DNA of 64,000 bases from Sphaerobacter thermophilus DSM 20745 (GTDB taxonomy: Bacteria > Chloroflexota > Chloroflexia > Thermomicrobiales > Thermomicrobiaceae). The stretch is from assembly GCF_000024985.1 (NCBI RefSeq), contig NC_013523.1:682001-746000 (forward strand), read 5' to 3'. Every line of letters starts with the position of its first letter. The first letter of the stretch is position 1. A model generated the notes under the pieces. The model was not told the origin of the DNA, made no database searches, and saw only the letters and a program-made list of their open reading frames with translations. This document shows, piece after piece, positions 4,284 to 13,969 of the stretch. Made by a program: the position numbers and the translations under genes.

Positions 4284-4592
4284 ATGCGCTACCGCGACGG
4301 CATCCTGAAGATTGAGCACGGCATCCTCCCGGGGCTGAAGGAGGTTCTCCTCCGGCTGACTGAGGTTGAGGATGTGCGTTCGATCGTGCCCGGCCGCATC
4401 TACGCCACCCGTGGGCGGCCCGGCGGGGCGCTAACGGTGCGGGTCAGCGCGCCCACGGCGACCGGGGTGAAGCTCATCGCCAGACGGGGCTCGTCGGTGC
4501 AAGAGGTCTTCGTTGTCTGCGACGACCGGGCCGCGGTCGAGCAGGTGCTCCGGGCGGCCGGTGTCGATCCGCGGCGCTCCCGGCGTCGGTAG
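4284..4592 (+). CDS. Small DUF2103-like protein
   Basis: A 102-residue protein that starts MRYRDGILKIEHGILPGLKE and contains IVPGRIYATRG, a VRVSAPTATGVKLIARRGSSVQEVF segment and a basic tail. This order of motifs agrees with what I remember of DUF2103 (predicted metal-binding proteins of unknown function), but I could not check it. It lies 27 bases after the pyrophosphatase gene and is probably part of the same transcript. No ribosome binding site is strong, with GGGGGACAAGGGCGG before the ATG. Confidence 0.6.
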   Translation: MRYRDGILKIEHGILPGLKEVLLRLTEVEDVRSIVPGRIYATRGRPGGALTVRVSAPTATGVKLIARRGSSVQEVFVVCDDRAAVEQVLRAAGVDPRRSRRR

Positions 4593-8269: not shown

Positions 8270-8391
8270 GCGGCGTTCGCCGCCAGGAGCCGCCGCGAAT
8301 GCGTCGAGCCAGCCATGTATGACTCCACGTCCGGCGCGCGTTAAGGGGGTGAGCGCAGATGCGCTCACGGCGCGCAGTGAGAGGGGATACT

Positions 8392-9381
8392 ATGGTACCG
8401 GCTCGGTTCTCTGCCACGGCATCGATGCCGCGGGGGCGACGTGTGCTGGTCCTGTTCATGGTGCTGGGACTCGTCCTCGCGGCGTGTGGGAGTGCGGAGA
8501 CGACTCCCACGCCGTCGGCTCAGGAGCCGACGGCGCCCACCGGCGGCGCACCGGCGACGAGTACGCCAGCCGCCACAGAGTCTCCGGCGGCTACTCCGGA
8601 GTCGACTCCGGAGTCGACCACGATCCCGGCGTCCCCGTCTCCGGAAGCGTCTCCGTCCCCAACCGCAGAACGGCAGGTCAACGTGTACTTCATCCGCGAT
8701 GAGAAGATCGCCGCGGCGCACCGACTGGTCCCGGGCTCACCGCGCCCGGCCACCGAGGCGATCCAGGCACTGCTGGCGGGCCCGACCGAGGCGGAGCAGG
8801 CCGCCGGGATGTCGACGGCGATCCCGGAGGGGACCACGCTCAACGGCATCACGATCGAGGGTGGGCTGGCGACGGTGGACCTCTCGGGCGATTTCGAGTC
8901 CGGCGGTGGCAGTTTCTCGATGCTGGCGCGACTGGCGCAGGTGGTCTACACCCTGACGCAGTTCCCGACCGTGGAGCAGGTGCGGTTCGAACTCGACGGG
9001 CAGCCGGTCGAGGTCTTCAGCAGCGAGGGGATCGTCCTGGATCAACCGGTCAACCGCGCAGCCTATGAGGACCTGACCCCGGCGATCCTGGTCGAGACCC
9101 CCGCCTTCGGCGACACGGTGTCGGGGCCGCTCCAGGCGTCCGGCACCGCCAACGTGTTCGAGGCCACGTTCCAGATTGAGATACTCGACGAAGCGGGGAA
9201 CCAGTTGGCCCATCAAGTGGTGACGGCGACATCCGGCAGCGGTATGCGCGGCACGTTCGATGTCACCATTCCCTTCGAAGTCTCCGAGCCTGGATCGGGC
9301 ACAGTCGTCGCCTATGAACTCTCGGCCAAGGACGGCTCGCGTATCAACGAGGTCCGGATCCCGGTCGAGTTCCAGCCGTAG
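8392..9381 (+). CDS. GerMN and Gmad2 domain lipoprotein
   Basis: A 329-residue product with a signal peptide ending in the lipobox LVLAAC, followed by a Thr/Pro/Ser/Glu-rich linker, a GerMN domain (from about VNVYFIRDEKIAAAHRLV to FELDGQPV) and a C-terminal immunoglobulin-like Gmad2 domain (VETPAFGDTVSGPLQASG to the end). Such proteins are surface lipoproteins of unknown ligand, widespread in non-sporulating relatives of the spore germination proteins. The ATG at 8392 with GAGAGGGG five bases ahead is preferred; an ATG at 8359 also has an AAGGGGGTGAG ribosome binding site and would add 11 residues. A palindromic repeat follows the gene. Confidence 0.85.
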   Translation: MVPARFSATASMPRGRRVLVLFMVLGLVLAACGSAETTPTPSAQEPTAPTGGAPATSTPAATESPAATPESTPESTTIPASPSPEASPSPTAERQVNVYFIRDEKIAAAHRLVPGSPRPATEAIQALLAGPTEAEQAAGMSTAIPEGTTLNGITIEGGLATVDLSGDFESGGGSFSMLARLAQVVYTLTQFPTVEQVRFELDGQPVEVFSSEGIVLDQPVNRAAYEDLTPAILVETPAFGDTVSGPLQASGTANVFEATFQIEILDEAGNQLAHQVVTATSGSGMRGTFDVTIPFEVSEPGSGTVVAYELSAKDGSRINEVRIPVEFQP

Positions 9382-9392
9382 GCCGGGGACGG

Positions 9393-9434
9393 CCCTCACC
9401 CCCTGACCCCCTCTCCCAACTTTGGGAGAGGGGG
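9393..9434 (+). repeat. Palindromic repeat, copy 1 (left of DUF559 gene)
   Basis: CCCTCACCCCCTGA followed by a palindrome with arms CCCCTCTCCCAA and TTGGGAGAGGGG. The same unit occurs inverted at 9975-10013 and directly at 13930-13969. It lies 11 bases after the GerMN stop codon and probably also acts as a transcription terminator. Confidence 0.8.
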
Positions 9435-9466
9435 AGTGTTCTGCTCGTCACCGGTCGGCATGTGGT

Positions 9467-9883
9467 TCAGCCTGGGGACCGAGGCTGCTCGAGCGTAGCG
9501 GCGGGGTGGTCCTCTGTGATGAGCGCGGTGAGGCGTTGCAGGACGCCATCGAGGTCGCACAGGACCTCCTCATTGCGGAAACGGACCACGTGGTAGTGGT
9601 ACTGGGCGAGGTGCTCCGTCCGCGCGGTGTCGTAGTCCCGGCGCTCATGGTGCACATCGCCGTCGACTTCGATGATGAGCCGCAGGCTGGGACAGTAGAA
9701 ATCGACGACGTAGGGGCCAAGCGGGTGCTGCCGCCGGAACTTCAACCCGTGGAAGCTCCGCCCGCGCAGCGCCTGCCACAGGGTAGCCTCGGCCGGGGTC
9801 TGGGTGCGCCGGAGCTGTCGCGCCGCCGCATTGAGCGCCTGCGTCGTGCCCCGCACCCGACCCGTCGACGTGTTCCGCCGCAC
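9467..9883 (-). CDS. DUF559 (Vsr-like endonuclease fold) protein
   Basis: A 138-residue protein with the DUF559 pattern: TQTPAEATLWQALRGRSF, GLKFRRQHPLGPYVVDFYCP, then LRLIIEVDGDVHHERRDYD and VVRFRNEEVL. The family is related to the very-short-patch-repair endonuclease and restriction-like nucleases; the D...E.D pattern (VVDFYCP and IIEVDGD) fits the catalytic core. The start is GTG with GGGAGG eight bases upstream. The gene is bracketed by inverted copies of a palindromic repeat, about 33 bases beyond its stop codon and about 90 bases before its start codon, so gene plus repeats may be a mobile or domesticated unit. Confidence 0.85.
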   Translation of the reverse strand: MRRNTSTGRVRGTTQALNAAARQLRRTQTPAEATLWQALRGRSFHGLKFRRQHPLGPYVVDFYCPSLRLIIEVDGDVHHERRDYDTARTEHLAQYHYHVVRFRNEEVLCDLDGVLQRLTALITEDHPAATLEQPRSPG

Positions 9884-9974
9884 GCCGCGCCTCCCGGTTC
9901 TCGCGCGATCCCCGGCAATTCTTCACCACGCAGGATAGGACCATCATCGTCGCCCTTCACCTCCTCGTCAATCC

Positions 9975-10013
9975 CCCCTCTCCCAACGTTGGGAGAGGGG
10001 TCGGGGGTGAGGG
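9975..10013 (-). repeat. Palindromic repeat, copy 2 (right of DUF559 gene, inverted)
   Basis: A perfect 26-bp palindrome (9975-10000; half-site CCCCTCTCCCAAC) followed by TCGGGGGTGAGGG. On the minus strand this reads CCCTCACCCCCGA plus palindrome, that is, the inverse of the copy at 9393-9434. A partial related stretch continues to about 10084 (GGGGTCCGGGGTGAGGGG). Confidence 0.8.
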
Positions 10014-10095: not shown

Positions 10096-12309
10096 TCAGG
10101 CAAGCGAGCGGAGGCGTTCGGCGAGGGCGGTGTAGCGGCGGGCGATGCGGTCGTTGCGCACGGCGATCGCGATGGCACGGGGCTGGGCGACGAGCACGAC
10201 AAGTTCCCGGGCGCGCGTGATGGCGGTGTACAGCAGGTTGCGCTGCAGCATCAGGTAGTGTGCCGTCAGCACAGGCATTACCACGGCACGGAACTCCGAT
10301 CCCTGCGCCCGGTGGACCGAGATGGCGAAGGCGTGGCCGAACTCGTCCGCCTGGGTGAACGGCACGTCGACCGTGCGGCCGTCGTCGAGTGCGAGCCGGA
10401 ACCGCTGCTCAATCGGGTCCAGGCTCTGCACGTAGGCGAGATCGCCGTTGAAGACCTCGAGTTGATAATTGTTGCGCAGGGCGATCAGGCGGTCTCCGGT
10501 GCGGATGAGCCGCCCGGCCGCCCGCGTCTCCAGCTTACCGGGCGCGGCGGGGTTGAGCGCCTCTTGAAGCAACTCGTTCAGCCGGCGGGTGCCCGCTGGG
10601 CCGCGGTTCATCGGGCTGAGGACCTGGATCTCGCCGGGGTTCAGCCCGTACGCGCGCGGCAGCCGCTCCTGGACCAGCTCGATGATCGTCTCCGCAGCCC
10701 GCTCGATGACGTCGGGCCCCTCAGGGAGGCGCAGCACCGCGAAGTCGCGGATGTCCCGACCCCACTGCGGCATCTCGCCGTGGTTGATCCGATGGGCGTT
10801 GCGGACGATGGCGCTCTGCTCGGCCTGCCGGAAGACCTCGTCGAGCCGTACCACTGGCACTGCGCCACTGTCGATCACGTCGCGCAGGATATTGCCCGGG
10901 CCCACCGATGGGAGCTGGTCGACATCGCCAACGAGCAGCAGGTGCGTCCCCGGCTCGATCGCTTTCAACAGCGTGTTGCAGAGCGCGACATCCAGCATCG
11001 AGGCTTCATCAACCACGACCAGGTCCGCCGGGAGCGGGTTCTCCTCGTTGAAGAAGGCGGCGCCGCCGGGCTGGAGCTTCAGGAGCCGGTGGATCGTCTG
11101 CGCCTCGCGCCCGGTCACCTCCGCCATGCGCTTGGCGGCGCGGCCGGTCGGCGCGGCCAGGATGACGCTGGCGCGCTTGGCCCGCGCCAGCGTCACGACC
11201 GCGCGCAGGGTGGTGCTTTTCCCTGTCCCCGGCCCGCCGGTGAGGACGGTCACGCGCTGGGTAAGGGCGGTGCGCACGGCCGCGACCTGTTGTGCGGCCA
11301 GGGGTGGCATGCCCTGCGTGTGGTGGAGCCAATCGAAGGCGCGCTCCCAATCGACGCTCTGGAAGGCGGCCAACCGGTCGTCATCGGCCGCGGCGAGCCG
11401 GGAAAGTCGCCGCGCCACGGCGATCTCGGCGCCGCCGAGCGCGCTGAGGTAGACCGCTTCCACCCCGTCGTTCGCTTCGACGAACACATCCCGCGCGGCG
11501 ACGAGATCCGGGATCACGGCGTCCACCTGGGCCGGGTCGCAGCCGAGCAGTTCGGCGGCGGCTGTCACCAGCTCGTCGCGGGGGAGGTACACGTGGCCGT
11601 CGCGGTCGGCGGCCTGGGAGAGGACGTAGCGCACACCGGCTGCGAGCCGCCCCGGGTCGTCGTGGGGGATGCCCAGCGAGCGGCCGATCGTGTCGGCCGT
11701 CTTGAAGCCGATGCCCCAGACATCGCGCGCGAGCCGGTAGGGGTCGGTCTGGACGATGTGGAGGGCGTCGTCGCCGTACTCGCGGTAAATGCGCACCGCC
11801 AGTCCGGTGTGCACGCCAAGGCTCTGGAGCAGGACCATCACGTCCTTGATCGCCCGCTGCTCGGCCCAGGCGGCGATGATGGCCTTGATCCGCTTCGGCC
11901 CCAACCCGCGCACCTCGCTGAGTCGCTCGGGCTGCTGGTCGATCACGTCGAGGGCTTCGGCGCCGAAGTGCTCGACGATGCGCCGTGCGGTGACCGGGCC
12001 AACCCCTCGGATGAGCCCGGAGCCGAGGTACTTGCGGATGCCCTCCGTCGTCGCCGGGAGGATCGAGCGGAAGCCCGTCGCCTGGAACTGGCGTCCGTGC
12101 TGTGGATGTGTGGTCCAGAATCCATCTAGGTGCAGCGTCTCGCCGGGATTGACCCCGCCGAGTTGCCCGACCACCGTCACCTCGGCACCGCGCCGGGTGG
12201 TTACCTTCAGAACCGTGTACCCGTTGCTCGGGTTCTGGTAGGTGATGCGCTCGACCGTGCCTTCCAGCTCCGCCGTGGGAGGGGATGGAGACGAGGACGT
12301 GATGGCCAT
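10096..12309 (-). CDS. recD2: RecD2-type ATP-dependent DNA helicase
   Basis: A 737-residue SF1B helicase of the RecD2 class, which acts without RecBC. The N-terminal region (about 10-210) has an OB-like start (LEGTVERITYQNPSNGYTVL) and helix-hairpin-helix motifs (LIRGVGPVTARRIVEHFG, EVRGLGPKRIKAII). The motor follows: Walker A TGGPGTGKSTT (about 355), APTGRAAKRM, Walker B VVVDEASML, GDVDQLPSVGPG, and C-terminal ISVHRAQGSEF and AITRARELV. RecD2 unwinds DNA 5' to 3' and takes part in recombination and replication-fork repair. The ATG at 12309 fits the family N terminus. The gene runs opposite to the next gene, with about 200 bases between their starts. Confidence 0.92.
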   Translation of the reverse strand: MAITSSSPSPPTAELEGTVERITYQNPSNGYTVLKVTTRRGAEVTVVGQLGGVNPGETLHLDGFWTTHPQHGRQFQATGFRSILPATTEGIRKYLGSGLIRGVGPVTARRIVEHFGAEALDVIDQQPERLSEVRGLGPKRIKAIIAAWAEQRAIKDVMVLLQSLGVHTGLAVRIYREYGDDALHIVQTDPYRLARDVWGIGFKTADTIGRSLGIPHDDPGRLAAGVRYVLSQAADRDGHVYLPRDELVTAAAELLGCDPAQVDAVIPDLVAARDVFVEANDGVEAVYLSALGGAEIAVARRLSRLAAADDDRLAAFQSVDWERAFDWLHHTQGMPPLAAQQVAAVRTALTQRVTVLTGGPGTGKSTTLRAVVTLARAKRASVILAAPTGRAAKRMAEVTGREAQTIHRLLKLQPGGAAFFNEENPLPADLVVVDEASMLDVALCNTLLKAIEPGTHLLLVGDVDQLPSVGPGNILRDVIDSGAVPVVRLDEVFRQAEQSAIVRNAHRINHGEMPQWGRDIRDFAVLRLPEGPDVIERAAETIIELVQERLPRAYGLNPGEIQVLSPMNRGPAGTRRLNELLQEALNPAAPGKLETRAAGRLIRTGDRLIALRNNYQLEVFNGDLAYVQSLDPIEQRFRLALDDGRTVDVPFTQADEFGHAFAISVHRAQGSEFRAVVMPVLTAHYLMLQRNLLYTAITRARELVVLVAQPRAIAIAVRNDRIARRYTALAERLRSLA

Positions 12310-13340: not shown

Positions 13341-13916
13341 ATGGATCGCGCAGAAGCCTGGCAGCTCGTCACCGAGTACACCACACAACCGCATCTGCTG
13401 CGCCACATGCTCGCGGTGGAAGCGGCGATGCGGGCCTATGCCGAGCGCTTCGGTGAGGATCCGGACCTCTGGGGCCTGGTCGGACTGCTGCACGACTTCG
13501 ACTACGAGCGCTACCCCGACATCAGCGTCGAGGGTCATCCCGTAGTCGGCGCGAAGATCCTGCGTGAGCGCGGCTGCTCGGAGGAGGTGGTCCGCGCGAT
13601 TCTCAGCCATGCCGAGGACATCACCGGCGTCAAGCCCGAGAGCCTCATGGAGCGGACCCTGGTCGCGGTGGACGAGTTGACCGGCTTCCTGGTCGCCGTC
13701 GCGCTGGTCCGGCCGACCAAGAGCATCCTGGATGTCGAGGTCAAGAGCGTCCGCAAGAAGTGGAAGGTCAAGGAGTTCGCGGCGGCGGTCAACCGGCAGC
13801 AGATCGAAGAGGCGGCCGCGGCGATCAACATGCCGCTGGACGAGCACATCCAGGTGGTTCTCGACGCCATGAAGGCCAATGCCGAGGCGCTCGGCCTCGA
13901 GCGAAAGGTGGCGTGA
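13341..13916 (+). CDS. HD-domain hydrolase (HDIG type)
   Basis: A 191-residue protein with the HD metal-binding pattern: His in PHLLRHMLAVEAAM, the HD pair in GLLHDFDYE, a further His in ILSHAEDITG, and Asp in AVDELTGFLVA. These are the ligands of the metal-dependent phosphohydrolase core. Similar stand-alone proteins are annotated as HDIG-domain or phosphohydrolase-like proteins; the substrate is unknown. The ATG has GGAGGGAGTGAGG before it. A copy of the palindromic repeat follows the stop codon by 13 bases. Confidence 0.85.
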   Translation: MDRAEAWQLVTEYTTQPHLLRHMLAVEAAMRAYAERFGEDPDLWGLVGLLHDFDYERYPDISVEGHPVVGAKILRERGCSEEVVRAILSHAEDITGVKPESLMERTLVAVDELTGFLVAVALVRPTKSILDVEVKSVRKKWKVKEFAAAVNRQQIEEAAAAINMPLDEHIQVVLDAMKANAEALGLERKVA

Positions 13917-13929
13917 GGGGAGAGGATAC

Positions 13930-13969
13930 CCCTCACCCCCAGCCCCTCTCCCACAAGGGGAGAGGGGGG
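13930..13969 (+). repeat. Palindromic repeat, copy 3
   Basis: CCCTCACCCCCAG followed by arms CCCCTCTCCC and GGGAGAGGGG around ACAAG. It belongs to the same family as the two copies around the DUF559 gene. It sits between two converging genes and may terminate both. It is followed by short direct repeats TGACGCATGACGTATGACGC (13999-14018). Confidence 0.75.

Follow-up and report, generated by a model that had tools for sequence, protein, structure and literature searches.

BoxC/PIT hairpins, known since the 1990s, are markers of locus instability that occur in hundreds of bacterial genomes and with which no gene was known to be associated; DUF559 is a large family of nucleases without a clear role. 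Under the name of G+C-rich intrastrand triplex motif (TM), a survey described BoxC/PIT as an intergenic, multi-copy element with the structure CCCTCTCCC-loop-GGGAGAGGG-NNN-GGGTGAGGG; it counted 23 copies in Escherichia coli MG1655 and reported the element from over 260 genomes, and according to its authors mobility genes were never found close to TM (Holder et al., 2015; PMC4666352). Repetitive extragenic palindromic (REP) elements, the repeats of REP-associated tyrosine transposases (RAYTs), are defined by a GT(A/G)G head (PMC2817692), and homology of the E. coli DUF559 protein YcjD to Vsr was reported in 2005 (PMC1189080). Here, a stretch of 64,000 nucleotides of Sphaerobacter thermophilus DSM 20745 (the window; C1:682001-746000 of source genome G000, 3,993,764 bp in two contigs) was analyzed, in which a DUF559 gene is enclosed by a hairpin repeat, with one copy on each side in inverted orientation. 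The proposal is that the nuclease and its cognate repeat make up a system akin to REP/RAYT but built on an unrelated enzyme, a reading given a probability of about 0.65. No paper linking DUF559 to BoxC/PIT/TM was found in the open-access literature (subscription papers and bioRxiv were outside the search).

The DUF559 cassette and its repeat

The DUF559 (PF04480) nuclease gene occupies positions 9467..9883 on the minus strand, as an open reading frame (ORF) of 138 amino acids with a GTG start. The left repeat copy (9393..9434, plus strand; G000:C1:691393+ in the genome listing) consists of the outward-facing head CCCTCACCCCCTGA and a near-perfect palindrome, CCCCCTCTCCCAACTTTGGGAGAGGGGG, whose 13-nt arms follow the head and are separated by 2 nt. 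The right copy (9974..10013, minus strand; G000:C1:691991-) contains a perfect 26-bp palindrome (9975-10000), followed by the head TCGGGGGTGAGGG, also outward. A repeat search of the window placed the two copies in inverted orientation with both heads facing outward; a preliminary description, in which the gene was said to be bracketed by inverted repeat units, was correct in its coordinates and in the perfection of the right palindrome. A profile search of the genome returned the window's gene as the only DUF559 gene of G000.

Repeat copies in G000 were counted by pattern searches. The palindrome core gave 110 matches, with 0 for the reversed control, and the oriented head-palindrome unit likewise gave 110 (49 + 61), with 0 for its control, so the count of the repeat that the preliminary description had called for yielded 110 dispersed units. 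Among 100 listed units, 12 pairs were 40-200 bp apart (approximately 0.6 expected), 11 of which were inverted with heads outward and a spacing of 75-115 bp; the sole heads-out pair 200-1000 bp apart among these units was the DUF559 cassette (598 bp). This spacing and orientation is the geometry of REP doublets (REPINs) and of a gene-bearing REPIN-like unit. On comparison with published sequences, the 110 oriented matches contained both the palindrome CCCTCTCCC/GGGAGAGGG and the adjacent third tract GGGTGAGGG, and the repeat is the known BoxC/PIT/TM element, private neither to the locus nor to the organism. Formation of the intrastrand triplex has been demonstrated in vitro with the E. coli version of the motif (PMC4666352).

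Transcription can end at G+C-rich hairpins located close to the ends of genes, and those of the cassette could be read as ordinary terminators or attenuators regulating the DUF559 gene. This reading was rejected as very improbable because of the copy number (about 110 dispersed copies, with paired units and a conserved head) and because matched hairpins also stand on the 5′ side of the gene; moreover, PIT elements had neither promoter nor terminator activity (PMC4666352).

The 138-residue protein matched PF04480 with 132.5 bits, the only other profile match being a weak one to PF18741, and retained residues invariant in a 30-sequence alignment, among them E32, D61, E72, D74, H78, D85, R88, R101 and N104. 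An AlphaFold2 model (mean predicted local distance difference test score 82) had as its nearest folds 3hrl and then the homing endonuclease I-Bth0305I (3r3p), with Vsr (1vsr) lower in the list. On the profile, the alignment and the model, the protein is a predicted DUF559 nuclease of the Vsr/EDxHD-like branch of PD-(D/E)XK nucleases. A Caulobacter DUF559 protein causes a DNA damage response once a methyltransferase is lost (PMC12907096), which fits with nuclease activity of this family in vivo. Weak PF04480 matches were also seen in open frames of approximately 1200-1800 amino acids in the search of the class (below), as a second group of DUF559-like domains inside very large proteins.

DUF559 genes and hairpins across Bacteria

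PF04480 and the exact TM were both searched in the same 158 genomes of the class. TM copies per genome had a median of 9.5 where a strong DUF559 match was present and 0 where it was not (p = 2.7e-6). An exact TM lay within 350 bp of 18 of the 46 DUF559 genes (0.50 expected), and with lineage-variant stems allowed a hairpin was found within 400 bp at 46 of 59 class loci, at 28 of them on both sides. The outermost TM pointed outward in 38 of 51 cases. Head orientation is claimed for the class loci only; automatic calls on the loci of the cross-phylum set mostly gave no orientation.

The cross-phylum set comprised 80 DUF559 loci from Chloroflexota, Cyanobacteria, Planctomycetes, Bacteroidota, Proteobacteria, Acidobacteria and others. 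At 48 of 74 loci, flanking repeats in inverted orientation did better than every control taken at random positions, and at least one hairpin was present within 300 bp at 66 of 74. Close to DUF559 (up to 150 bp), the density of pyrimidine/purine hairpins was 4.3-4.7 per kb, compared with 0.03-0.13 per kb more than 1.2 kb away. Of the 157 DUF559 flanks, 105 (67%) bore hairpins; elsewhere in these loci the figure was 14 of 194 intergenic gaps (7%), giving an odds ratio of 26 and p = 6e-34, a p-value that overstates certainty because loci of one phylum are not independent, so that the effect size is what matters. Two plasmid-borne cyanobacterial DUF559 genes and the DUF559 gene of Neisseria gonorrhoeae were also embedded in such hairpins. 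Enrichment of DUF559 genes between repeat copies, which the preliminary description had named as a check, was thus strong in the class and in other phyla, both between and beside matching hairpins.

A different arrangement was observed at four loci (L063, L093, L103 and L058), where long direct repeats with alignment scores of 110-170 flanked the DUF559 genes, as though these lay inside a tandem hairpin array. In N. gonorrhoeae (L180, 1251-2200), direct copies of a GTCCTCTCTCCCTGTGGGAGAGAG...AGAGAGGGCAACAAGC hairpin repeat surround the DUF559 gene, presumably the gene of structure 3hrl.

The DUF559 gene of E. coli is ycjD (167 bits), located between sapF and fabI. The TM copy 3′ of ycjD was identical to published copy 9 (1,351,204-1,351,239; table in PMC4666352). 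The gene was present in 3365 of 5426 complete E. coli genomes, at a median of one place per carrying genome, and in 5/5 ycjD-less genomes examined its place was occupied by a resistance-nodulation-division (RND) efflux operon (eef); eefRABCD has been described at the ycjD site in other E. coli lineages (PMC12817139). The recurrence of the pairing across many phyla and the BoxC copy beside ycjD together suggest that the predicted enzyme works on these repeats and may spread them, and ycjD with its BoxC copy makes the link between DUF559 and the repeat directly testable in laboratory E. coli. On its upstream side ycjD had no BoxC copy but a long palindrome (TCACCTCATTCTGACAA...TTGTCAGAATGAGGTGA; L188, 2156-2200), perhaps an operator or else an end that has diverged.

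Cassette-specific hairpins and reciprocal sites

Among 78 two-sided cassettes, the similarity of left and right hairpins was 0.76 within a cassette and 0.39 after swapping, and none of 2000 permutations reached the observed value. Genomes with two two-sided cassettes had ends that matched better within than across cassettes in 4/4 cases. Class genomes with 2-5 PF04480 matches exist, and those compared have different hairpins. The variant flanking DUF559 in G099, CCCCCCARNNYTGGGGGG, was present in 86 copies in that genome and in 0 copies in 7 other genomes.

The cassette of the window stands between two genes outside the system, an ORF at 8359..9381 (plus strand; presumably lipoprotein-like, of the GerMN type), conserved as a neighbor in G113, and an ORF at 10096..12309 (minus strand; which we take to be a RecD2-like helicase), conserved as a neighbor in both G112 and G113. 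At this site (site A), a DUF559 cassette was present in G000 and G112 and a single repeat in G113. At site B, a DUF559 cassette was present in G113, and G000 carried repeats without a DUF559 gene. Occupied and gene-less sites were thus reciprocal between species of the genus (G000/G112 versus G113), the empty-site polymorphism that the preliminary description had asked for in relatives, and they show that the gene has moved, or has been lost differentially, at sites that bear repeats, but not by what mechanism. Site B in G112 (L194, 7283-10627) held approximately 3 kb of extra sequence with a 757-amino-acid ORF between repeat copies, where G000 has only about 420 bp.

The solo third unit of the window (13930..13969, plus strand, directly 3′ of the ORF at 13341-13916) was confirmed by the oriented-unit search of the genome as a real, gene-less copy, as first described. 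It was rejected as an empty-site polymorphism because G112 has the copy as well, there with a 9-bp insertion. An insertion of 9-10 bp (GGACGGAGC / GGCTCCGTCC) recurred within one arm of some repeat hairpins (L193, ~4455-4500, in G112; also L011 and L051) and was absent from the window's third copy.

The traffic at these sites bears on an explanation in which BoxC/TM repeats destabilize loci, genes come and go, and DUF559 is one small cargo among many. The extra 3 kb at site B of G112 and the efflux operon at the ycjD site (PMC12817139) are in keeping with it, as is the more frequent rearrangement of TM loci than of others among E. coli strains (PMC4666352). Passive cargo would not, however, be expected to have matching ends, or hairpins that differ in type where one genome has two DUF559 genes, and hairpins in 7% of other gaps against 67% of DUF559 flanks in the same loci also speak against it; the explanation is disfavored as quite improbable.

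In the main rival model, DUF559 would be a homing endonuclease, free-standing and directed at the repeat, that cuts gene-free repeat pairs and copies its own gene into them, with the repeat itself spread by another agent. I-Bth0305I among the closest named structures, repeats at the alternative gene-less sites, a mostly single-copy gene and the many genomes that have repeats but no gene would all agree with homing. It would nevertheless require a second, unknown mobilizer of the repeat in every phylum, and by itself it predicts neither a separate hairpin type for each DUF559 gene of one genome nor the genome-wide amplification of a DUF559-specific variant in G099, unless target specificity co-diverges. 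Homing is considered unlikely.

The proposed system and its known relatives

Anatomy, copy number, pair geometry, cross-phylum bracketing, end matching, cassette-specific types and reciprocal sites are all direct observations, and they favor the REP/RAYT-like reading, in which the hairpin is probably bound and cut by the DUF559 protein; spreading of the repeat through this cutting is given an even chance. The cognate repeat would be a pyrimidine head, CCCTCACCCC, joined to a C-rich/G-rich palindrome (BoxC/PIT/TM), and the gene would ride in a cassette ending in two inverted copies of one repeat. Solo copies and the 75-115 bp inverted pairs would be non-autonomous and would stand to the cassette as REPINs stand to RAYTs. 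In the likeliest mechanism, replication would expose single-stranded DNA on which a repeat copy is extruded in hairpin or triplex form, after which the nuclease would recognize its own hairpin type and cut at or near the head/hairpin junction, and host recombination or end-joining would copy the inverted pair, or rarely the gene-holding pair, into a new site. Copying is assigned to the host because the fold hydrolyzes DNA and has no known strand-transfer chemistry.

Several points weigh against the proposed system. Outward heads at class cassettes were a majority and not universal, and about 11% of the cross-phylum loci (8/74) had no such hairpin within 300 bp. Several class genomes without detectable DUF559 were rich in TM (more than 150 copies, and more than 220 in G045 and G047), and since such genomes retain abundant repeats, their upkeep does not require the gene. 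The BoxC-type repeats of ycjD were confined to its 3′ side in E. coli, where close repeat pairs were mostly heads-inward. In G150, the special stem of the cassette had no further occurrences in the genome and was rejected as a genome-wide family. Protein and hairpin similarity were correlated (Mantel r = 0.29, p = 0.001), which counts in favor of the system, but the correlation stems partly from phylogeny or shared ancestry and base composition. No excision, insertion, target duplication or gene-transfer event was seen at the compared sites, and we know of no strand-transfer step among hydrolytic nucleases of this fold.

A wider proposal, held tentatively and at slightly under even odds, is that these loci represent a new class of mobile repeat system, widespread in Bacteria, in which a hydrolytic Vsr/EDxHD-type nuclease without transposase chemistry would drive the spread of its own triplex-forming hairpin repeats via host repair, and which would be the origin of BoxC/PIT/TM, including that of E. 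coli (YcjD). The link between DUF559 and the repeat gives an unexplained repeat and an unexplained nuclease family a testable function, and it suggests that the REP/REPIN way of life, with one enzyme gene and many palindromes, evolved more than once with unrelated enzymes.

A RAYT-like system could be compared within the same genome. The single Y1 (PF01797) transposase gene of G000 (G000:C1:86896-87234; L056), located between gyrB and gyrA, is bracketed by inverted copies, 522 bp apart, of another palindrome, CAGCCCCTTCAGTGGGCTT, which was present in 83 exact 19-mer copies with 14 doublets 72-74 bp apart, all in one inverted orientation. No DUF559-type repeat flanked the Y1 gene at that locus. 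RAYT-like and DUF559 systems thus coexist in G000 with the same layout and different repeats. The Y1 transposase is unlikely to be the mover of the DUF559-type repeat because this single gene has its own, different palindrome.

The preliminary description had likened the locus to a REP/RAYT system whose transposase is replaced by a Vsr-like gene; the hairpin association and the reciprocal sites support that likeness. Shared with REP/RAYT are a single-copy gene between two inverted palindromic repeats, dispersal of the repeat in approximately 100 copies that are partly inverted doublets, and a gene that does not multiply itself, with different genes of one genome having different repeats. The DUF559 system was nevertheless not filed as REP/RAYT because, for all the common architecture, the defining enzyme and head differ: the enzyme is a predicted PD-(D/E)XK-type DUF559 nuclease rather than an HUH/Y1 transposase (PF01797), and the head is CCCTCACCCC rather than GT(A/G)G. 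With EDxHD homing endonucleases (I-Bth0305I, 3r3p) and Vsr (1vsr, 1cw0), DUF559 shares the catalytic fold and conserved acidic/His residues; unlike them, its gene had no intron, long DNA-binding extension or linked cytosine methyltransferase that could be seen, and is bracketed by multi-copy hairpins. As in pairs of a miniature inverted-repeat transposable element (MITE) and an autonomous insertion sequence, short repeat pairs share their ends with one longer, gene-carrying element, but here there is no DDE transposase, no target duplications were shown, the ends are hairpins and the gene is rarely multiplied. With respect to BoxC/PIT/TM (Holder et al., 2015; PMC4666352), the repeat itself is the same, and the DUF559 partner is the new element.
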